Below are positions 1,433 to 33,830 of a DNA stretch of 64,000 bases, one piece after another. The stretch spans positions 1 through 64,000 of the forward strand of contig NZ_WSZK01000015.1 in NCBI RefSeq assembly GCF_009791395.1, written 5' to 3'. Source of the stretch: Halomarina oriensis (GTDB taxonomy: Archaea > Halobacteriota > Halobacteria > Halobacteriales > Haloarculaceae). Positions within the stretch are counted from its first letter, which is position 1. Every line of letters starts with the position of its first letter. The translations under genes were made by a program, and so were the position numbers. The notes below the pieces were generated by a model. The model made no database searches and was not told where the DNA came from. It saw only the letters and a list, made by a program, of their open reading frames with translations.

Positions 1433-2446
1433 TCATTCTCTCAGATACCTCCGCCGCTGCTCCATCTTCTCACGCTTCGTACGCCGGTCGTAGTGTCGAT
1501 CCAGCACCGTCGCGGATACGTCCATGCGGTCGCTCACAATCTCGGTCGGCACGTCGTCGAGCAGGTGGGCCGTAATGGCCCCCGAGCGTATCTCGTGCGG
1601 CGACCGTGACGAGGGGCACTTGCTGGACGAATCGTAGCTCGTCGCCTCGCACTCGCCGACGTCGCGGTCGTGCGGACACCCCTCGCCGTACTTGCAGGGG
1701 CGCGTCACGCCGTAGATGGTCTGCCGGATAGTCGTCGAGTGAACGCGACCCTCTCGTGTCGTCAGCAGCGGCTCACGCCCGTGTTTGTCCTCGCGGTCGA
1801 TTCGCGGGCCGTTGATGTGGTCCTCGACCACCCGCGAGACGTGTGGCGCGAGAGCGACCCAGCGCTCCCCACGTTCCTGGTTCTTCAGCGGTGTATCCGT
1901 CTCCGGTCGGTGCTTCAGTTCCAGCGAGTCGTCCTCCAGGTCGATGTCCTCGAGGTCGAGTGACCGAATCGCGCCGGTTCGCATCCCCGTCCGCCACAGC
2001 AGAAGCATCACCACGTGCTGGCGGCTCGCGTACTGGTAGCGGTCGAGATACTCGATCGCGGCCTCTGCCCGTGCTGGGTCGATAGTCGTCTCCCTGGCCT
2101 GTTCTGCACCGGAAACCGTGGGGAGCAGAATCTTTGACCGTAAGCCCTCTGGCACGGCATCGATGGATGCGCAGAAGCCCATGAACACCCGGAGTGTGGA
2201 GAGTTGCCCCTGTAGCGTCACAGGCTTCAGTCCGTCCTCCTCGCTCCGAAAGACGCGATAGGCGTGCAGGTCGCGCCCGGTCAGGACGTTGAGGTTCGTG
2301 ATGTCCTCGCGCTGGCACCAGTCGATGAACCGCTCCAGCCGGTAGTGGTGTGTCTGGAGCGTCTGGTCGCTCACTTCGCTCGCTCGCTGGCTAAGGTAGA
2401 GGTCCAGCGCCGCCTCCGGCGCGATGGGGTCGAGTTCGTCACCCAT
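1433..2446 (-). CDS. int: Tyrosine recombinase (provirus integrase)
   Basis: Catalyses site-specific integration and excision at the tRNA-Ile attachment site. The N-terminal region (about 15-110) matches a SAM-like core-binding domain. The catalytic domain shows Arg156 in RTGMRTG, His284 and Arg287 in SPHEIRSGAI, and the nucleophile Tyr319 in DRHYDRR. A cysteine/histidine-rich insert around 250-280 (CKYGEGCPHDR, then two more Cys) is typical of haloarchaeal provirus integrases and may bind zinc. The usual second His of the family is replaced in the SDRMDVSATVLDRHY segment. I start at ATG 2446, overlapping the J-domain gene stop by 8 bp, rather than at the upstream in-frame 2623 that lies inside that gene. 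It is the last gene of a three-gene minus-strand operon. Confidence 0.92.
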   Translation of the reverse strand: MGDELDPIAPEAALDLYLSQRASEVSDQTLQTHHYRLERFIDWCQREDITNLNVLTGRDLHAYRVFRSEEDGLKPVTLQGQLSTLRVFMGFCASIDAVPEGLRSKILLPTVSGAEQARETTIDPARAEAAIEYLDRYQYASRQHVVMLLLWRTGMRTGAIRSLDLEDIDLEDDSLELKHRPETDTPLKNQERGERWVALAPHVSRVVEDHINGPRIDREDKHGREPLLTTREGRVHSTTIRQTIYGVTRPCKYGEGCPHDRDVGECEATSYDSSSKCPSSRSPHEIRSGAITAHLLDDVPTEIVSDRMDVSATVLDRHYDRRTKREKMEQRRRYLRE

Positions 2447-3017
2447 CGAGCATCGCCTCCTTCGCGGACTGCACGCGCTGGAACGCTTCACGGTCGCCCC
2501 CGGCGTCCGGATGCGTCTCTTTCGCCAGGTCGCGGGCAGCGCTTCGTACCGTCGCATCGTCAGCGTCTCGAGGAACGTCGAGTATCTGGTGCGGCGGAAT
2601 GTCGGTCCCCACGTCGACGTCACCCGCCGGGAGCCGAGCGGCAGCGAAGTCCGCGCCGCCGGTCACCACCGGGCGCTGTCCACGCATCCGCGTCTCGTGG
2701 ACCCACAGGTAGACGGTGCGAACGTTGTCGCGGAGACTGCTGTAACGATCACAGGCGACGGCGAACTGCTCGCCGTCCTTCGACCAGCGGAGTACGAATC
2801 CGGGGTCGTCCGGGTTTGCCGAGTACTTCGGCAGCCCGTTCGCCTTCGTGTGCGCGCCGCCCGAGCCGGTCGAGGCACGCCACTCATCGGGGTCGAGGCG
2901 GTCTATCTCGATCGTGAGTTCCTCGGTCGTCTGACCGAGTGAGACACGAAAGCTCGATCGTCGCTTTCGGTCCCGTAGAGGGGTTCGCTCCAACTCCGGC
3001 GGCCAGTCGAGGCTCAC
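2439..3017 (-). CDS. J-domain protein of the integration operon
   Basis: 192 residues. The C-terminal ~55 residues are a DnaJ J domain: PHQILDVPRDADDATVRSAA, then the HPD signature in KETHPDAGGD. Such domains stimulate Hsp70 (DnaK) ATPase. The N-terminal ~135 residues are a beta-rich region without a family I recognise (LGQTTEELTIEID, FVLRWSKDGEQFAVACDRY). The GTG start at 3017 overlaps the stop of the upstream zinc-ribbon gene as GTGA, which argues for translational coupling and against the longer frame from 3101, whose extra residues are an out-of-frame reading of that gene. Placement directly before the integrase suggests a role in recombination, replication or host chaperone recruitment. 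That role is inference. Confidence 0.8.
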   Translation of the reverse strand: MSLDWPPELERTPLRDRKRRSSFRVSLGQTTEELTIEIDRLDPDEWRASTGSGGAHTKANGLPKYSANPDDPGFVLRWSKDGEQFAVACDRYSSLRDNVRTVYLWVHETRMRGQRPVVTGGADFAAARLPAGDVDVGTDIPPHQILDVPRDADDATVRSAARDLAKETHPDAGGDREAFQRVQSAKEAMLDG

Positions 3018-3184
3018 CGTTCGCTCCGTGCGCAGTTGCGACAGGTCGCGTGGCCCGTCTGGGCGTCGTGACCGACGGCCTTCGCCTCGCACGAGTGGCA
3101 CGGGGTTGCGTCGTCGGGTTTTAGAGTAGGCGATGCCTCTTGCCGTGCGCGGGGTTCCAGCCCCGCGAAGGTGTCCGCTTGCAT
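3014..3184 (-). CDS. Small zinc-ribbon protein (56 aa)
   Basis: ATG 3184 to TGA 3014 encodes a 56-residue protein with two CxxC knuckles 15 residues apart: PCHSC (Cys29, Cys32) and CRNC (Cys48, Cys51), ending in ARSER. This is a single treble-clef or ribbon zinc site. The stop overlaps the GTG start of the J-domain gene, making it the first gene of a zinc ribbon, J-domain, integrase operon. Function unknown; a regulator or an accessory that assembles with the J-domain protein is possible. The N-terminal codons contain a perfect GC-rich hairpin (3148-3167), so translation initiation may be structured. Confidence 0.7.
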   Translation of the reverse strand: MQADTFAGLEPRARQEASPTLKPDDATPCHSCEAKAVGHDAQTGHATCRNCARSER

Positions 3185-3226
3185 ATTGGCAGTGGAACCA
3201 CCCGCAGGGGCGTGCCAGCGCCCCTG
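3148..3226. repeat. Two adjacent GC-rich perfect hairpins
   Basis: CGCGGGG-TTCCAG-CCCCGCG (3148-3167) and CAGGGGCG-TGCCAG-CGCCCCTG (3205-3226) are perfect stems with near-identical six-base loops (TTCCAG, TGCCAG). The first lies in the start of the zinc-ribbon gene and the second just upstream, in the divergent region between the integration operon and the first regulator. They could regulate the integration operon or be protein-binding sites. Confidence 0.5.
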
Positions 3227-3291
3227 TATGTCCTACAACGCTCGTTGTGTGCCTACTGTGTCTCGTGCTCCGGGGGTTCCAGTAGCTACAA

Positions 3292-3315
3292 TGTATGACC
3301 TATACAAATATGTAT
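3292..3315. promoter_or_regulatory. Operator-like triple half-site before the first regulator
   Basis: TGTAT (3292-3296), ATACA (3302-3306) and TGTAT (3311-3315) alternate in orientation, giving two overlapping inverted repeats (5- and 4-base spacers) in an AT-rich stretch 60-85 bp upstream of the winged-helix gene at 3378. This fits a multi-site operator for autoregulation. The AT-rich 3292-3360 segment probably also holds the promoter. Confidence 0.45.
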
Positions 3316-3377
3316 TGGACATTCTAGAGTGCATATATCGTACAACTAACGAGCCTATGTTTCAAATTCGCATTTAG

Positions 3378-3701
3378 ATGAGGCACTCTGCCGCCTGGAT
3401 GTCGATTTGGGATGACCGAATTCTTGAATATCTCCAAGAAAACGGTCCATCTCCAGTCGGCGAGATCGCGGAGAACGAGTACATCCACGTCTCTCAGCCC
3501 ACGGTCTCTCGACGATGCCAAAGACTGGCCGAGCATGGGTTCACCGCTAGGGTTGGGAATGGGGTGTACGTAATCACCGAGCGTGGCAAGTCGTACTTGG
3601 CTGGTGAACTCAACGCGGCGGAAAATCAGCCAGACCAGATACCAAAGATGGACAGCGAGCCGGCGACTGAAGGGAAAGAGTCGGGAACTAATGGCACCTG
3701 A
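3378..3701 (+). CDS. Winged-helix regulator, PhiH1-repressor-like (107 aa)
   Basis: A small DNA-binding protein. MSIWDDRILEYLQENGPSPV leads into a helix-turn-helix (GEIAENEYIHVSQPTVSRRCQRLAEHGF) and a wing (ARVGNGVYVITERGKSYLAGEL). This is the layout of haloarchaeal proviral PhiH1-type repressors. Residues 85-107 are a polar tail. It is divergent from the integration operon and close to a triple half-site, so it probably controls the choice between integration and lytic genes. A paralogue lies at 3854-4144 and shares the opening MRxSAxWM and the DxRILEYL block. Confidence 0.75.
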   Translation: MRHSAAWMSIWDDRILEYLQENGPSPVGEIAENEYIHVSQPTVSRRCQRLAEHGFTARVGNGVYVITERGKSYLAGELNAAENQPDQIPKMDSEPATEGKESGTNGT

Positions 3702-3752
3702 GCAGATTCGTTACCCTCACTGGGGGGGTATCGGAAATCGACTTATCGCCAG

Positions 3753-3823
3753 CGTTAGAGTGTGTTAGTTCATCTAAAGCAGATTTCCTCACAATCAGAA
3801 TTATCGGAACGGACACTCTAGCG
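3753..3823. promoter_or_regulatory. Inverted repeat CGTTAGAGTGT / ACACTCTAGCG before the second regulator
   Basis: CGTTAGAGTGT (3753-3763) and ACACTCTAGCG (3813-3823) form an 11-bp inverted repeat with one mismatch and 49 bp between the arms, ending 30 bp before the second winged-helix gene. The core CTAGAGTG also occurs at 3324-3331 before the first regulator. A shared operator bound by one or both paralogues is likely. Confidence 0.5.
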
Positions 3824-3853
3824 GTTATGAGGTCAACCCACTGTCTGTCGAAT

Positions 3854-4144
3854 ATGCGAAAGTCGGCGACGTGGATGGTGTTGTTGGACGAGCGAATCCT
3901 CGAGTACTTAGCAGAAGAACCCTGGTCATCACCGCGTATGATGGTGTCGCGGAGACCATTCCAAGGACTACAGGTGTCGATAGGTCGGTTGCGTGAGAGG
4001 CTAAGAGCGTTGGCTGAGGCAGAATTGATTTCCCACTTATGGGGTGAAGTATTTGAGATATCTAGGAAGGGACTACGGTACTTAGATGAAGATCTCAACG
4101 CTAATTTGGTACCACTCAATCGACCATCGAAATATCAGGTTTGA
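3854..4144 (+). CDS. Second winged-helix regulator, paralogue of 3378-3701
   Basis: 96 residues from ATG 3854. I prefer it to the upstream ATG 3827 because the opening MRKSATWM and DERILEYLAEE then align with the first regulator. A helix-turn-helix follows (MMVSRRPFQGLQVSIGRLRERLRALAEAELI), then a short wing (SHLWGEVFEISRKGLRYLDEDL). Its recognition helix differs from the paralogue, so target sites may differ. An 11-bp inverted repeat lies directly upstream. Two diverged repressor-like genes next to each other recall a lysogeny switch; which one acts as repressor is not visible. Confidence 0.7.
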   Translation: MRKSATWMVLLDERILEYLAEEPWSSPRMMVSRRPFQGLQVSIGRLRERLRALAEAELISHLWGEVFEISRKGLRYLDEDLNANLVPLNRPSKYQV

Positions 4145-4270
4145 TAGGTGCAAACACAGATGTCTGTTCATTTGCCATCCAAATTAGAATATTCCAGCAG
4201 TTGTGACAAGGGAACGGCTCCATCAAAGACGTTATAATTGAGAGTCACATAGAACCAGCCAGCCTAAACA

Positions 4271-4390
4271 ATGAACCGAATAGAACAGGTTTCAGAGAGC
4301 GCACTTGAGCAGCCGCTCCCCGAAAACCTGGAAGGCTGCAGAATCATTGTTCGGACCAAAGACAAAGAGTACACGAGAGAGCTCTCATAG
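4271..4390 (+). CDS. Small protein, 39 aa, unknown
   Basis: ATG 4271 encodes MNRIEQVSESALEQPLPENL, then EGCRIIVRTKDKEYTRELS. Composition is typical of a folded acidic/basic haloarchaeal small protein, with an apparent C-terminal beta-hairpin (RIIVRTKDKEYTREL). No family recognised. It converges tail-to-tail with the PIN-like gene, 7 bp apart, and may be a separate cargo or a partner of that gene. Confidence 0.45.
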   Translation: MNRIEQVSESALEQPLPENLEGCRIIVRTKDKEYTRELS

Positions 4391-4397
4391 AAACAAC

Positions 4398-6737
4398 CTA
4401 CATCTCGAATTCTAAAATTTTGACGTCCAGTAGCTGCGATATAGTTGTTAAATAATCGTCTGCGTCTGCACATAACAGAGGGAGACTCTTTTCACGTGCG
4501 AGTAGTACAGAATCGTGAACAGTTTCTTGTCTCGATATTGCCTCAGAGAGTTCTGCGGTCTCGTAGTCAGCATTCTTTAACTGGTTTAGTTGGTGAAGAT
4601 GCCTTGCTTCTGTGCTGATGCCACCGATTGCGGCTGATTGAGATGCGATGATAGCGGAAATAGGAACATGGAACGTGATCCATGGCACTCCCCTTTGGTT
4701 GATTCGCAGTTTGGGGACCAAGTGCAGAATACACTCTTCAGATAAATACCGCCCATCCGGTCCTTCTTCGATATGCTTCCCCAGTTCTACAGCAGCAGTC
4801 GGTGTAATAACAAGGTCATTAGGAACACCGTGATCATACCTCAATGAATCACCATCAGGAAATGCAATAATCTCCTTGTCATCCAACCACCGATTAATGT
4901 ATGCACTCGCACTCTCGGGGGCATCTGTTTTCTCCCGTGGCATCTTTTGCTGGATTTGTTGCTCAACTTCTTCATTTATTGCCCCCCTCAAATCTGTCTC
5001 GGAAGAAAGTATATCACCAATTTTAGGGAGGATTTCGTTTTTGATAGCATCATCTAAATCAGGGGTATTTGTAACATCTGCAATATCTCGAATGTTCATA
5101 GAGGCAATTCCAGCAAATTCGCCCAACTTACGAAGGCGATCATCACCGCTCACAATACCAGCGCTCTCGCGTTCACAGGCCTCATCGAGAATAAGCATAT
5201 CAGCAATATCAGCCTCGTCAACCGGACCTGCATTCTTGCCAATCTTTCCATCAATTTCTAGTTGAATTAGACCAATTTCGGCTAGCTTACGGAAGACATC
5301 AATGTTGTCGATACCCTTTTTTTGTACAGTAGTGCTTGGTCCTCCTCGATCCTTATGCTTGTTAATCTCGTACAATGAAATCCAAGGTATAACAATATTT
5401 GAGTAAAAGAAGGTATCATTTGTGAAGACCGACTTCAAGACGCACGAACCGCGTTCATCTATAATTTCATGATACAGGGCATTGGTATCCCAAATCCACT
5501 CATCAGTACTCTTATCCGACGCTTTTGAGGTGTTGAACTCGGGGTCAGAGGCTATCTCAAGTCTTTCTCTTACAACTTCAATGATCGACTCGGCAATATG
5601 TGGGTATCCGTTGATATTGGGATAGGATGTGATTATCCCATCTGAAACAGATGCAATTCGTACTGTTACGTTACCGAACGAGAATGCGATGGAGTTGGTA
5701 TTAGGGAAATAATAAGGTTGCAAAAGAACATCGTCTTCATCGTCGGATTCACTCTGGATGTAAAAATCGGTGTCTTCAACTATTTGTTTGATGTCGGCAT
5801 ATTCTACGGATAGGCCATCCTCGCTGTCGGTTCTTATCAAGTGTTTGTTAATGTGAATACCCGTATCTTTCAAATCCACAACTCTTGAGGGAATTCCCCT
5901 CACGATTGGCCCATGGATGTCCTCTGTTTCAAAATGGTGAAGTATATTTGTATCAAAATATCGCCTATTCTTCACCATGTCCGCAATTGCTTTGGAGTCC
6001 ATATTGTTGATCGGCCGGTGAGTGGTGAAGTATGCCTCATCGGGCTCGGAGATGTCACCAGTATACGTTTTTAAATCAAGAATCCGATTATAGTCGCCAG
6101 CATAACTGGCTTCAAAATACTCGGGGGGGACCAGCCCTTCTGGGATATTAATTCTATTAAAGTGGTCATACTCATTGTCAGCCAAATTTCTGAATATTTG
6201 CCAGCCGATCACTAAATCCGCGTTTTTCAAGGATGATTCTACGAATTCCAGTACCTCATCGACGAAATCAGAAAAGTCCCCGGAGTCGTATATATTATAG
6301 CCATCGTCAGATTGGAATTTCTCTAACCGTTGATTCAGGCCATCTATCCATATTGAAGAATCTCGCTCCAATGCAATCAATAAAGGATGTGACTCAGTTA
6401 GCGAATCTAGTTCCTCTATATCCTGCAATGGAAATGCATAGGTGAGTTCATCGGTCTCGTTCTCCATTACGATTTCTGCTAAATCCCCAATCTCGAGTGA
6501 AGAGTTGCTCAGTATGCACTTGTCGGCAAAAATTGAGTATGGATTAGAATAGCTTGGTATAATATTTGACTCGTACAAATCAATATCGCCCAATATTGCG
6601 GGAAGATATCGACTGCGAATTGTTCCGGCATAAGACGGTGAACACCCAACAACATCCGCAATTTCTGATGGAGGAGCCTCGTTGTGGGTCGAGGCGTAAT
6701 CAACTATTGACTGTTGGATGTCTGTTAGATTATCCAT
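4398..6737 (-). CDS. Large HTH and tandem PIN-like nuclease protein (779 aa), provirus cargo
   Basis: The N-terminal ~60 residues look like a helix-turn-helix (IQQSIVDYASTHNEAPPSEI, then CSPSYAGTIRSRYL). FDTNILHHF around Asp262 resembles the first motif of a PIN ribonuclease. WDTNALYH around Asp417, followed by VIPWISLYEINKH, DEADIADMLILDEA and SGDDRLRKLG (about 417-560), is a nearly complete PIN active-site series. The end repeats the theme: VITPTAAVELGKH (Glu651) and HDSVLLAREKSLPLLCADADD near 740-765. PIN domains cleave RNA with acidic residues and metal. It is visibly AT-richer than the flanking virion genes, which suggests separate acquisition. No toxin-antitoxin partner is obvious beyond the 39-residue neighbour. 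A defence or superinfection-exclusion role is inference. Confidence 0.6.
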   Translation of the reverse strand: MDNLTDIQQSIVDYASTHNEAPPSEIADVVGCSPSYAGTIRSRYLPAILGDIDLYESNIIPSYSNPYSIFADKCILSNSSLEIGDLAEIVMENETDELTYAFPLQDIEELDSLTESHPLLIALERDSSIWIDGLNQRLEKFQSDDGYNIYDSGDFSDFVDEVLEFVESSLKNADLVIGWQIFRNLADNEYDHFNRINIPEGLVPPEYFEASYAGDYNRILDLKTYTGDISEPDEAYFTTHRPINNMDSKAIADMVKNRRYFDTNILHHFETEDIHGPIVRGIPSRVVDLKDTGIHINKHLIRTDSEDGLSVEYADIKQIVEDTDFYIQSESDDEDDVLLQPYYFPNTNSIAFSFGNVTVRIASVSDGIITSYPNINGYPHIAESIIEVVRERLEIASDPEFNTSKASDKSTDEWIWDTNALYHEIIDERGSCVLKSVFTNDTFFYSNIVIPWISLYEINKHKDRGGPSTTVQKKGIDNIDVFRKLAEIGLIQLEIDGKIGKNAGPVDEADIADMLILDEACERESAGIVSGDDRLRKLGEFAGIASMNIRDIADVTNTPDLDDAIKNEILPKIGDILSSETDLRGAINEEVEQQIQQKMPREKTDAPESASAYINRWLDDKEIIAFPDGDSLRYDHGVPNDLVITPTAAVELGKHIEEGPDGRYLSEECILHLVPKLRINQRGVPWITFHVPISAIIASQSAAIGGISTEARHLHQLNQLKNADYETAELSEAISRQETVHDSVLLAREKSLPLLCADADDYLTTISQLLDVKILEFEM

Positions 6738-6773
6738 TCAGATATCTTACTCTCACTAGGGAAAACATGGCTA

Positions 6774-7316
6774 TTATACTTTCCAAATGACATTGGCCTC
6801 TTCATTCAATTGGGACCCAGTGAATTGAATATAAGCATTCGCACTCGACAAGTCGGCGTGACCCATCGTCTGACGAATATACTGTGGCGTTGCGCCTCGA
6901 GCAGCGATGAGTGTTCCGTAGGTATGCCGGAGGACGTGCGGCGTCACTTTCTTGCGTAATTCGGTGTCAGCGGCGACAGCCTTCACACGCTTCGTAATGG
7001 CCTGTCGTGAGACGCCAATCTTCTCGTGGCGTTTGAAGTAGTCGCGAAGTGTGCGGAGTGCAGCAGGCTCTCGAACCGGAATCGTTCTCACTGCGTGAGC
7101 AGTCTTTGGTGTCCATCCCGACTGCTCGGGTGGAACCCGAATCTGTTCGTTCTGCCAGTCAACCCACTCCTCGGTCATATGGGCGAACTCGTTCGCTCTT
7201 AGGCCAGTGTAGGCAAGCGTCCGGCAGGTCATCTCGTGGCGAAGGCTGTGGCGTTCGGCAGCGGTCAACAGCTCGTCCAACTCGGTCTCTTCAAGCGGCT
7301 CGCGTTTCCACGCCAT
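6774..7316 (-). CDS. Catalytic-domain-only tyrosine recombinase (180 aa)
   Basis: The protein begins at the catalytic domain, with no core-binding domain. It has Arg40 (TGLRANE), a probable Lys71 (TPKTAHAVR), His127/Arg130 (HVLRHTYGT), His153 (GHADLSSA) and Tyr162. All catalytic residues are present, so it may be active, unlike a decayed fragment. Full-size relatives exceed 280 residues. ATG 7316 is followed upstream by three TGTAAACC motifs (7324-7414), candidate binding or recombination sites. It differs from the integrase at 1433-2446; possible roles are multimer resolution, DNA inversion, or an integrase retained from another element. Confidence 0.8.
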   Translation of the reverse strand: MAWKREPLEETELDELLTAAERHSLRHEMTCRTLAYTGLRANEFAHMTEEWVDWQNEQIRVPPEQSGWTPKTAHAVRTIPVREPAALRTLRDYFKRHEKIGVSRQAITKRVKAVAADTELRKKVTPHVLRHTYGTLIAARGATPQYIRQTMGHADLSSANAYIQFTGSQLNEEANVIWKV

Positions 7317-29926: not shown

Positions 29927-30610
29927 GTGGACGAATCGACGCGAGACGACGGTGAGGACGCCTCGACGGTCGTCGAGACCCTCCAACGCCTCAAGCGTGC
30001 GGGCTCCCGACTGCTCGTGACCGGGTCCGTCAGCGCCGCGGTCCGGGCCCAGCAGACGCGCCACCTGCTCGGGTCGCCCGAGGAGGACCGTGCTCGAATC
30101 CTCGCGCTCGCCGACGACTCCTCGCCGTCGGCACATCTCCCCGAGGGACCTCCCACGGCCGCCGACCGGGTGGCCGTCGTCGAACACCGCGGCGACGTTC
30201 GGTCGGCCACGGTCGCCCGTGCCGAACCGCTACCACCCCGAGAGACCGCGACGGACTCGATGGCGGCGTTCTACGAGGACGTCCTCGCGGCCGTCGCCGC
30301 CGACCGACGGGCGAACGGAGCGCCAGCGCCCGCGACGCTCCGTGTCGGGGTCGTCGGTGGCGGGGCGCTCGTCGACCGGCACGGACTGGACCGGAGCGAA
30401 CGGATGCTCCGCTCGCTGGGAGATACGGTCGTCGCCGACCGGGGGATGTTCCACTGCCACGTCGCCGCCGCGTCGGACGCCGCCGTCGTGGACGCCCTGC
30501 TGCCGTCGTTCGACGTGCACGTCGAACTCCGCCACCGCGAGGGGCTCCCACCGGAACAGCGCTGGTCGTTCCCGGAGACCGACGAACGGACCGAGTGGAT
30601 GTTGTTATAG
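29927..30610 (+). CDS. DUF7504-like protein upstream of the CHAT protease (227 aa)
   Basis: GTG 29927 lies about 25-30 bp after TTATTTAT (29896-29903), so the transcript is probably leaderless. The N-terminus is an acidic helix (TVVETLQRLKRAGSRLLVTG), the middle is a Rossmann-like alternation (RVAVVEHRGDVRSATVARAE, LRVGVVGGGALVDRHGLDRS), and the end is acidic (LRHREGLPPEQRWSFPETDE). I recognise it as the haloarchaeal DUF7504 type with moderate confidence. It stops directly before the CHAT gene, so the two are probably co-transcribed; it may be a sensor or adaptor. Confidence 0.65.
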   Translation: MDESTRDDGEDASTVVETLQRLKRAGSRLLVTGSVSAAVRAQQTRHLLGSPEEDRARILALADDSSPSAHLPEGPPTAADRVAVVEHRGDVRSATVARAEPLPPRETATDSMAAFYEDVLAAVAADRRANGAPAPATLRVGVVGGGALVDRHGLDRSERMLRSLGDTVVADRGMFHCHVAAASDAAVVDALLPSFDVHVELRHREGLPPEQRWSFPETDERTEWMLL

Positions 30611-30631
30611 GTGCCGAGTCGAAGTGCCAGT

Positions 30632-32740
30632 GTGAGCGCGCGTTATCTGACCATCGCCGCCACCGACGACCCGGTCGGTGTCGAACTCGCCGACGACATC
30701 CAGGGAGTGACGACCCGCCTGGAGACGGCGACGGCGGTCAGTCCCGAACCGTGTGAGCCGAGCGGGTTCGTCTTCCCCGTCGACGCCGCGGTTCGACTCG
30801 ACACGACCGCGCTCCGCATCCCACAGCACGTCAACCTCATCGTCCGGGAGATGGACGGCCGCGTCGTCGCGGAGGCAGCGAACCGCAACGAACTCTCGTT
30901 GCCCGACGGCGAGTACGTCGTCGAAGTCACCTCCCTCGCGGTCAAGACCTACCTCGCCATCGACGGACGCCTCCGGTCGACGACCGACGACGTGGGTCGA
31001 CGACTGCTGGTCGACGACGCCGACGACCTTCGCCTGGGCATCCGCTCGATGCACGAGTTCCCCGCGACGACGGTGACGACGACGGACGACCCCGCCGACC
31101 TCGCACGGGCACTCTCCTGTCTCGGGTCGGCGCTCAAGACGACCAGTTCCGAACGGTCCTGGCCGACGCTCCGTGGCCACCCGCCGCTGTTCGAACTCGG
31201 CGATAGCTTCGACGCGCCGCCCGAGTTCGAGCGGACGGACACCCCCGTCGGTATCGAGGTGCCGCCCACCGTCTCCTCGCTGTTCCCGGTCGCACCGCTT
31301 GCGTACTACACCGACGCTACCGTGCGTGTCGGCGGCGGGCCGCGACTGCTCGTCGACGGCGAGGAGTACCCGCTGGACGGACCGGGCGGGTTCGAGCGGA
31401 CCGTCCACCGGACGCTCGAGCGACTGTTCACGCTCGACTGTGTCGTCAGAACCGAGGGGCTGTACCCGGTCGACCTCCACGCACGGCGCGTCGTGGAGGA
31501 CGACCTGTCGTTCGACCCGGCGGCGATGTACGACGCCTCGCTCGTCGAACAGCTTCGCGCCTACCTCGACACTCCCCACGAGACGGTCGAACCGGCCATC
31601 CCCACCTGGAAGTCGACGGTCGACCTCGCACCGGCCGCCGAACACCTCGTCCACCTCCCGTTCGCCGTCGCCGACCTCGCGCGAGTCCGGTGTCCGCAAC
31701 CCGCGCTCTCACCGTCGAACGACGAGGAGTCGAAGGCCATCGAGGACTTCTACCGCAGCGACGGCGGCCTCGTTCGTGGCGTCGTCAGACGCCCCGGCCC
31801 GAACGAGACCCCCTTCGGCGAGGACGTCAGAGTCGTCCAGCCGGAACCGACCGACACCATCGAGCACGCGTGGGTCGGCGACGGGGTACCGATGGGGGCG
31901 TCGAAACCGACGCTGGAGGCGTGCAAGCGCCGCCTCGAAGCCCGACCGAGCGGTGCCATCGAAGTCGCCGTCGTCTCGAACTCTCCGGAGATGCGTGCCG
32001 AGATGGACGTCCGTGACCTGTACGGTCTCCGTGAACTCGTCGCGTTCGACATCGACATCTTCGAGGACCTCACCGGCACGGAACTCACGCGTGTCCTCGC
32101 GGACGACTACGACTTCGTCCACTACGTCGGCCACGTCGACGACGACGGGATGCAGTGTGCCGACGGTCCGCTCGACGCGACCACGCTCGACTACGTCGGG
32201 GCACGCGCGTTCGTCCTCAACGCCTGTCGCTCCTACGAACAGGGGATGGAACTCGTCGAGAAGGGAGCCATCGCGGGCATCGTCACGCTGGCCGAGGTCG
32301 GTAACGAACCGGCGACGCGTGTCGGCCGGACGCTCGCTCGACTCCTGAACGCCGGGTTCTCGATGGCGGGCGCGATGGACGTCCTCCGGAGCGAGACGAT
32401 TACCGGCCGGCAGTACACCGTCGTCGGCGACGCGCAGTTACAGATAGCAGATAGTCGAGGGGGAGTGCCGTTGTATACGGAGATAGAGCGACGCGAAGAC
32501 CAGTATCTGGCGTCGGTCTTCGCGTATCCCACGGCACGAACCAGACTCGGAGCGCTCTGCGTGCCTTATATCGGCGACAACGACGACTGCTACTTCAACT
32601 CGGGACCGGCTGGCGATTTCCTCGTTACCAAGGACGAACTGGAGGAGTATCTCTCACAGAGTCAGCTACCAGTGTTCGTCGAACAGCGACTCAGTTGGAG
32701 CGACGAGTTGCTCAGTTGCCTTCAAAACGAGCGCGATTGA
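30632..32740 (+). CDS. CHAT-domain (caspase-like) protease
   Basis: 702 residues from GTG 30632 (GTG 30611 is an in-frame alternative). The N-terminal ~430 residues are a haloarchaeal-specific beta-rich region. The C-terminal caspase-fold CHAT domain has His497 and His501 in FVHYVGHVDDDG and the nucleophile Cys532 in VLNACRSYEQG, followed by GAIAGIVTLAEVGNEPATRV, the expected small-helix block. CHAT proteases act in programmed cell death and defence in other systems (Craspase, gasdermin-linked proteases). It directly follows the DUF7504-like gene and converges on the 43-residue membrane peptide, a likely partner or target (inference). Confidence 0.85.
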   Translation: MSARYLTIAATDDPVGVELADDIQGVTTRLETATAVSPEPCEPSGFVFPVDAAVRLDTTALRIPQHVNLIVREMDGRVVAEAANRNELSLPDGEYVVEVTSLAVKTYLAIDGRLRSTTDDVGRRLLVDDADDLRLGIRSMHEFPATTVTTTDDPADLARALSCLGSALKTTSSERSWPTLRGHPPLFELGDSFDAPPEFERTDTPVGIEVPPTVSSLFPVAPLAYYTDATVRVGGGPRLLVDGEEYPLDGPGGFERTVHRTLERLFTLDCVVRTEGLYPVDLHARRVVEDDLSFDPAAMYDASLVEQLRAYLDTPHETVEPAIPTWKSTVDLAPAAEHLVHLPFAVADLARVRCPQPALSPSNDEESKAIEDFYRSDGGLVRGVVRRPGPNETPFGEDVRVVQPEPTDTIEHAWVGDGVPMGASKPTLEACKRRLEARPSGAIEVAVVSNSPEMRAEMDVRDLYGLRELVAFDIDIFEDLTGTELTRVLADDYDFVHYVGHVDDDGMQCADGPLDATTLDYVGARAFVLNACRSYEQGMELVEKGAIAGIVTLAEVGNEPATRVGRTLARLLNAGFSMAGAMDVLRSETITGRQYTVVGDAQLQIADSRGGVPLYTEIERREDQYLASVFAYPTARTRLGALCVPYIGDNDDCYFNSGPAGDFLVTKDELEEYLSQSQLPVFVEQRLSWSDELLSCLQNERD

Positions 32741-32872
32741 TTATGGACCGCGGATTGCGCCGGCGCTGGCCGCCGCAGAACCGGCCTGCGACAGCAACAA
32801 CAGCATCGTGAACAGGACGCCGGCCATCTTCGGGTGCTCTGCGATGTACGTCGAGACGTTCGTGTCGGACAT
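32741..32872 (-). CDS. DUF7503-like membrane peptide (43 aa)
   Basis: MSDTNVSTYIAEHPKMAGVL, then FTMLLLLSQAGSAAASAGAI RGP. The pattern of a short polar N-terminus, (A/S)xHPxM and a hydrophobic LFTMLLLLSQAG helix matches the haloarchaeal DUF7503 peptides. Its TAA stop abuts the CHAT stop (32740), convergent, so the genes are adjacent tail-to-tail. Starts at ATG 32872, with an AT-rich promoter at about 32895-32940. Confidence 0.7.
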   Translation of the reverse strand: MSDTNVSTYIAEHPKMAGVLFTMLLLLSQAGSAAASAGAIRGP

Positions 32873-32932
32873 GACAGATGGTACGATGCGCCATGAACCA
32901 ATCAATTTTACTAAATAGATTTTAGAAATTAA

Positions 32933-32959
32933 ACACTAAATTAAGTGTGAAAGTCACAC
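32933..32959. promoter_or_regulatory. Overlapping inverted repeats in the divergent promoter
   Basis: ACACT-AAATTA-AGTGT (32933-32948) and GTGTG-AAAGT-CACAC (32945-32959) overlap by four bases in AT-rich DNA 60-85 bp upstream of the membrane peptide and 210 bp before the divergent gene at 33168. A candidate operator for the CHAT-associated peptide. Confidence 0.45.
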
Positions 32960-33609: not shown

Positions 33610-33748
33610 TGGCCGGGGTGGGCTCCGAACCCACGATCTCCGCATGTCCCAGGTGTGGAGTCCGGCGGGACTCCACGGGATGCGGGCAGTTGCCGCGCGA
33701 GTGTGAACCCTATGAGTGCGGCGCTATGTCCAGCTAAGCCACCCGGCC
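33610..33748 (-). tRNA. Elongator tRNA-Met(CAU) with intron
   Basis: Exon 1 is 33711-33748 (GGCCGGG acceptor, D arm, CCGCA, then CTCATA up to position 37), the 65-bp intron is 33646-33710, and exon 2 is 33610-33645 (A, TGCGG, variable loop AGATC, GTGGG-TTCGGAG-CCCAC, CCCGGCC, discriminator A). The intron lies between positions 37 and 38, the canonical archaeal site cut by the splicing endonuclease at a bulge-helix-bulge. Confidence 0.92.
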
Positions 33749-33830
33749 TGTCTCCGAATATCGCCGTTTCGCACTTGACTCTTCCCATCTTCTCCCAGGG
33801 TTTTATGAGACGATAGACAGACCGCGTGGC

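Follow-up and report, generated by a model that had tools for sequence, protein, structure and literature searches.

A CHAT-family gene and a small gene that converges on its 3' end form, as judged from their co-occurrence, a near-obligate haloarchaeal pair, and the reading that best accommodates the data, with a probability of about 0.62 by our estimate, is a two-gene regulatory pair in which a caspase-fold protease would be controlled by a private peptide ligand, with a DUF7504 protein as an accessory component. The pair was studied in a window consisting of positions 1 to 64,000 of contig NZ_WSZK01000015.1 from Halomarina oriensis (GCF_009791395.1), that is, the whole 64,000-nucleotide stretch of DNA analysed. 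The features of the sequences that carry this reading are the pairing itself, the conservation of a catalytic dyad, the coevolution between the peptide tail and the protease and, in one genus, the replacement of the peptide leader by repeats of the tail.

The three open reading frames and their coordinates, as given in a preliminary description of this DNA, proved correct on re-examination (Table 1); the CHAT frame starts directly after the DUF7504 stop, without a gap, at a GTG in position 30611 (alternative start GTG 30632), and the CHAT and peptide genes converge with abutting stop codons (32740/32741). Residues are numbered here from 30611, His508 and Cys539 corresponding to His501 and Cys532 from 30632. 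Most loci have, upstream of the peptide ATG, an AT-rich, TATA-like element at comparable spacing, as judged by eye, whereas the inverted-repeat promoter formerly proposed for the peptide gene is weak, since the palindrome at 32933-32948 is imperfect, has 5-bp arms and is not preserved in L013, the nearest relative.

Table 1. Features of the CHAT-peptide locus in the window, and loci of the related repeat proteins
Feature	Position or loci	Strand	Basis or remark
DUF7504 protein gene, 227 aa	29927..30610	+	Pfam PF24336, E=3.6e-35
CHAT-family caspase-fold protein gene, 709 aa	30611..32740	+	Alignment, AlphaFold model, Foldseek; Pfam CHAT in 11/28 relatives
Predicted catalytic His508 (His501 from 30632)	32132..32134	+	His in 250/252 homologues
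Predicted catalytic Cys539 (Cys532 from 30632), motif LNAC	32225..32227	+	Cys in 250/252 homologues
Putative tail-docking segment, CHAT residues 641-670	32531..32620	+	Couplings; residue 653 at 32567-32569
43-aa peptide gene (DUF7503), convergent	32741..32872	-	Pfam PF24335, E=8.8e-21
Predicted mature tail SAGAIRGP after signal-peptidase-like site AAA↓S	32744..32767	-	Register conserved in 183/199
TATA-like promoter element of peptide gene	32900..32918	-	AT-rich, judged by eye
Repeat-protein loci, one genus	L114, L115, L118, L169-L171, L173-L175		Same convergent site

The CHAT protein is best read as a predicted cysteine protease of the cytosol, with a caspase fold. By itself the window protein matches no Pfam profile, and searches of NCBIfam and of PDB sequences gave nothing useful; the Pfam CHAT profile (PF12770) is matched by 11 of 28 relatives of the protein, the best at 2e-5. 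Alignment and model together point to an N-terminal beta domain, a middle domain, the CHAT domain and a C-terminal beta domain, and the Foldseek matches of the AlphaFold model (pLDDT 87.6, pTM 0.89), namely gingipain R, separase, SAVED-CHAT and procaspase-3, indicate a caspase-like fold. The histidine and cysteine that had been singled out as catalytic are each conserved in 250 of the 252 distinct CHAT genes. No TPR match was obtained in the profile search, no export signal is evident on the protein, and no CRISPR gene was recognised beside the window copy or the other copies in the same genome, as far as the listed neighbours were annotated.

CHAT homologues are present in 271 of 292 Halobacteria genomes (93%), with one to 13 CHAT genes per genome, and DUF7503, the Pfam family of the peptide, in 252 of the 292; among the control genomes, both DUF7503 and DUF7504 were found solely in H. 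volcanii. Outside Halobacteria, weak CHAT relatives were found in four genomes from one family of the same phylum, in which no peptide was detected. No member of the CHAT family was found in 50,697 phage records or in a viral-contig scan, and 26 of 72,556 plasmid records contain a relative. When pairing was counted with a peptide HMM built without the tail columns, and with a convergent peptide accepted at up to 350 nt from the CHAT gene, 200 of 252 distinct CHAT genes had such a neighbour, usually within a few bases (41 pairs overlap by 4 nt and 40 have abutting stops), and of 94 loci chosen solely by their DUF7503 match, 91 include a distinct CHAT gene paired with the peptide, far above chance. 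About eleven type-1 CHAT genes have an intact dyad and no nearby peptide. The genome of H. oriensis holds five more CHAT relatives besides the window copy, and all four of its other full-length copies have at the 3' end a convergent frame of 41-48 codons ending in Gly-Pro, some of which only were recognised by the DUF7503 profile. One CHAT-DUF7504-peptide set of this genome (L011, G000:C30) is surrounded by short genes reminiscent of a provirus or plasmid. At another locus (L145, 1145-1495), two near-identical peptide frames lie beside a single CHAT gene, as if the peptide gene had been duplicated in tandem.

This recurrence of the CHAT-peptide pairing and the conservation of the catalytic residues, the two points on which the preliminary description said that its module could fail, both favour that module, although the part of that proposal that made it a self-contained set of three genes holds for the protease and the peptide, which co-occur across the whole archaeal class, and not for DUF7504. 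In 136 loci, DUF7504 is upstream and adjacent in 72, and downstream and divergent from the peptide in 17, and it is regarded as an optional companion because of these figures; in H. oriensis it adjoins the window CHAT gene and three of the four other full-length copies. Its AF2 model (pLDDT 87.9) has a RecA-like fold and matches KaiC in Foldseek (E 7.6e-7), with a degenerate Walker A in which the segment LLVTGSVSAAVRAQQTRHLLG has no GKT/S and no Walker A lysine. The best reading of DUF7504 is that of a pseudo-KaiC accessory regulator, associated with about two thirds of the loci.

The peptide of the window scores 73.7 bits against DUF7503 (cut-off 27). Across 199 peptides the order of elements is an invariant Pro, a Lys or Arg (196/199) and a 12-residue hydrophobic core, followed by a polar turn that is mostly Ser/Thr-Gln-Ala-Gly (SQAG), by [AV]-x-[AGSC] and by a tail of 8 or 9 residues in most of them; the [AV]-x-[AGSC] motif stands at the same register in 183 of the 199, where it is far commoner than at any other register. 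The end is Gly-Pro in 193 of 200 convergent peptides, and five of the other seven fit the loss of the last two residues alone (L180, L272, L278, L282 and L283), L180, L282 and L283 being paralogous pairs of one genome (G263). This anatomy suggests a signal-peptide precursor from which a ligand of 8-9 residues would be released, rather than a membrane anchor, despite a net-negative n-region. Signal-peptide-like is a better description than the former label of membrane peptide, and in some copies (L009 and L011) the hydrophobic stretch does not reach the length of a membrane helix. The idea of a stable anchor in the membrane, its tail lying outside, was set aside, because an outside tail could not meet a CHAT protein that has no visible export signal.

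The convergent gene of one genus lacks the hydrophobic segment. Its product has an N-terminus like MSERDSGTV and, after it, a 13-mer of the form [MYFS][TN]ADGN[SG][SG]GISGP, with ISGP at its end, repeated 4-13 times; a sister genome has at the same site an ordinary peptide starting MSETDSGTV. The leader has been replaced in these proteins by multiplied tail repeats, and therefore the tail is the part that is kept and multiplied. A second, diverged CHAT clade (type-2; L153-L168, L183-L189, L194-L197 and L203-L204) includes loci with another small GP-ended frame at the same site (L160, L161, L165, L184, L186, L188, L189 and L203); a GP peptide is detectable beside few of the type-2 genes, and beside many none was detected. 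The diverged copies of the peptide vary in their N-terminal part and retain the GP end, and some of the type-2 peptides have no signal sequence.

These variants also bear on a mechanism developed from the preliminary description, in which CHAT would cut the peptide at a conserved HP[KR] site and free a hydrophobic piece that attacks membranes. Gingipain R and separase, the structural relatives of the CHAT protein, cleave after Arg, and the conservation of a basic residue in 196 of 199 peptides would suit such a cut; nevertheless, a basic residue is equally expected at a signal-peptide boundary, the L009 and L011 stretches fall short of a membrane helix, and the strong coevolution described below lies in the C-terminal tail and not at HP[KR]. 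The units of the repeat proteins have no basic site, and the cleavable HP[KR] was set aside because these proteins, which also have no hydrophobic segment, lack it. Membrane attack by a cleaved product is, on balance, very unlikely.

The connection between tail and protease was analysed by residue coupling in 193 CHAT-peptide pairs (effective number 148; 22,681 inter-protein column pairs). The coupling between CHAT residue 653 and tail position -6 ranks first of the 22,681, with z 10.1 against 5.3 for the runner-up, and it ranks first again in both disjoint halves of the CHAT tree (z 6.2 and 6.4). Among the top 50 couplings, 12 link CHAT residues 641-670 to the tail, where 0.5 would be expected. 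Simply counting the branches of the CHAT tree on which two sites change together did not set the 653/-6 pair apart, which is attributed to saturation, both sites changing on about a quarter of the branches; within-clade permutations were used for this reason, and in 180 within-clade peptide shuffles at three cut-offs the real z of 10.6 was never matched (best 8.4). Linkage of the 3' ends was rejected as the cause of the coupling, since residues 691-709, the nearest to the junction, give one of the top 50 and residues 641-670 give 12.

The states at 653 and -6 go together as Tyr with Gly, His with Ser or Thr, Asn with Ser, Asn or Thr, and Leu with Phe, Ile or Val; outside the fitted set, the repeat-protein genus has Trp653 with Gly in four loci, His653 with Ser in L169 and Phe653 with Ser in L171, the last with no clear fit to this pattern. 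Further couplings along the segment (649/-4, 651/-6 and 653/-9) would suit an added antiparallel strand, and tail position -4 couples more weakly to CHAT residues 77 and 285, which are uncoupled to each other; these two couplings are mutually inconsistent and count against the docking reading. This coevolution shows functional coupling, of whatever direction or chemistry, and we infer from it that the tail probably docks physically on the C-terminal domain of the CHAT protein.

In the mechanism that we favour, the convergent small gene would make the dedicated peptide ligand of its neighbouring CHAT protease, as a precursor with a signal-peptide-like leader, an [AV]-A-[AG] cleavage motif at which the leader is presumably removed, and an 8-9 residue Gly-Pro tail. 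The tail would dock on the cognate CHAT protein, in the C-terminal beta domain around residues 641-670, and thereby switch the protease; our leaning is that the docked tail would keep the protease off until the peptide disappears, restraint being more likely than activation. The leaderless repeat proteins and the absence of an evident export signal on the CHAT protein suggest that the two would meet inside the cell.

A toxin-antitoxin or abortive-infection system would go further, with a labile peptide that inhibits a self-directed protease and a cell that dies when peptide synthesis is lost and the protease is freed. Tight cognate pairs with private specificity and the caspase fold are compatible with such a system, and so are the repeat proteins, since inhibitors built of tandem units, such as calpastatin, are common. 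Nevertheless, the family is near-universal, chromosomal and not found in viruses or phages, none of the three proteins matches a known anti-phage defence profile in PADLOC, and some dyad-intact CHAT genes have no peptide gene close to them, all of which make this reading doubtful. A role in death or defence is possible, and defence in particular is argued against by the near-universal, chromosomal occurrence of the family, which is unlike that of sporadic defence islands.

In a different reading, the peptide would be a pheromone, its precursor being exported and cut, and the tail would accumulate outside, be re-imported and switch CHAT as cell density rises, much as in Phr-Rap or AimP-AimR. 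The signal-peptide anatomy with its -3/-1 motif in 183 of 199 peptides, the variable tails matched to each receptor, the presence of several paralogous pairs in a genome (with as many as 13 CHAT genes) and the tandem-repeat precursors of one genus can all be read in this way, but repeat precursors and some type-2 peptides without a signal sequence, as well as the net-negative n-region, are at odds with it, and we hold it as a tentative possibility. Its full form, with a caspase-fold receptor-protease that detects a secreted 8-9 residue Gly-Pro peptide within the cell, in almost all haloarchaea and through paralogous private channels, is rather improbable. The density signal for disk formation in H. 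volcanii is reported to be a small molecule that is resistant to proteinase K and extractable with ethyl acetate (PMC12240190), and it is not evidence for a peptide pheromone because of these properties.

The regulatory pair that we favour resembles the RRNPP systems (Rap-Phr, AimR-AimP) in its precursor of about 40 amino acids with a signal-like leader and a short variable C-terminal peptide, in the adjacent receptor and in the several paralogous pairs per genome. It differs from them in a caspase-fold CHAT receptor in which no TPR domain was found, in the convergent genes, in the Gly-Pro-ended tail, in its occurrence here in Halobacteria and in an export step that is putative. The CHAT fold and His-Cys dyad are shared with Craspase TPR-CHAT/Csx29 and with SAVED-CHAT, the latter a Foldseek match; unlike in these CRISPR-associated proteases, neither a TPR nor a SAVED domain was recognised here, nor a CRISPR effector among the neighbours as far as they were annotated, the partner is a tiny peptide and the family is near-universal in its class. 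Separase and gingipain R are the best structural matches, at very low identity (10-17%), and in the separase-securin system a partner protein binds separase and holds it, whereas the partner here would be a short peptide tail.

The first and third genes of the window are members of DUF7504 and DUF7503, both Pfam families of unknown function. No paper came up in literature searches for DUF7503 or for the CHAT domain in combination with haloarchaea, and the link to CHAT, the coevolution and the repeat variant are absent from the literature searched for these families. A caspase-fold protease with what appears to be its own coevolving peptide ligand, in 93% of the haloarchaeal genomes sampled, is likewise not described there. 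Strong caspase-like activity has been reported in Haloferax volcanii without a gene homologue (PMC3615174), and the CHAT family is a testable candidate for the gene behind it. The CHAT-peptide pairs also bear on possible signalling by short peptides in archaea, and the coevolving pair of residue 653 and tail position -6 lends itself to a specificity swap.

Elsewhere in the window, positions 33610-33750 of the minus strand read like an intron-containing tRNA gene, where ARAGORN reported none. At 1433-7316 there is an AT-rich island (about 43% G+C at 4-6 kb), a probable integrated element, flanked by integrase-like frames at 1433-2623 (-) and 6774-7316 (-) and containing a 779-aa frame with a possible PIN-like region.
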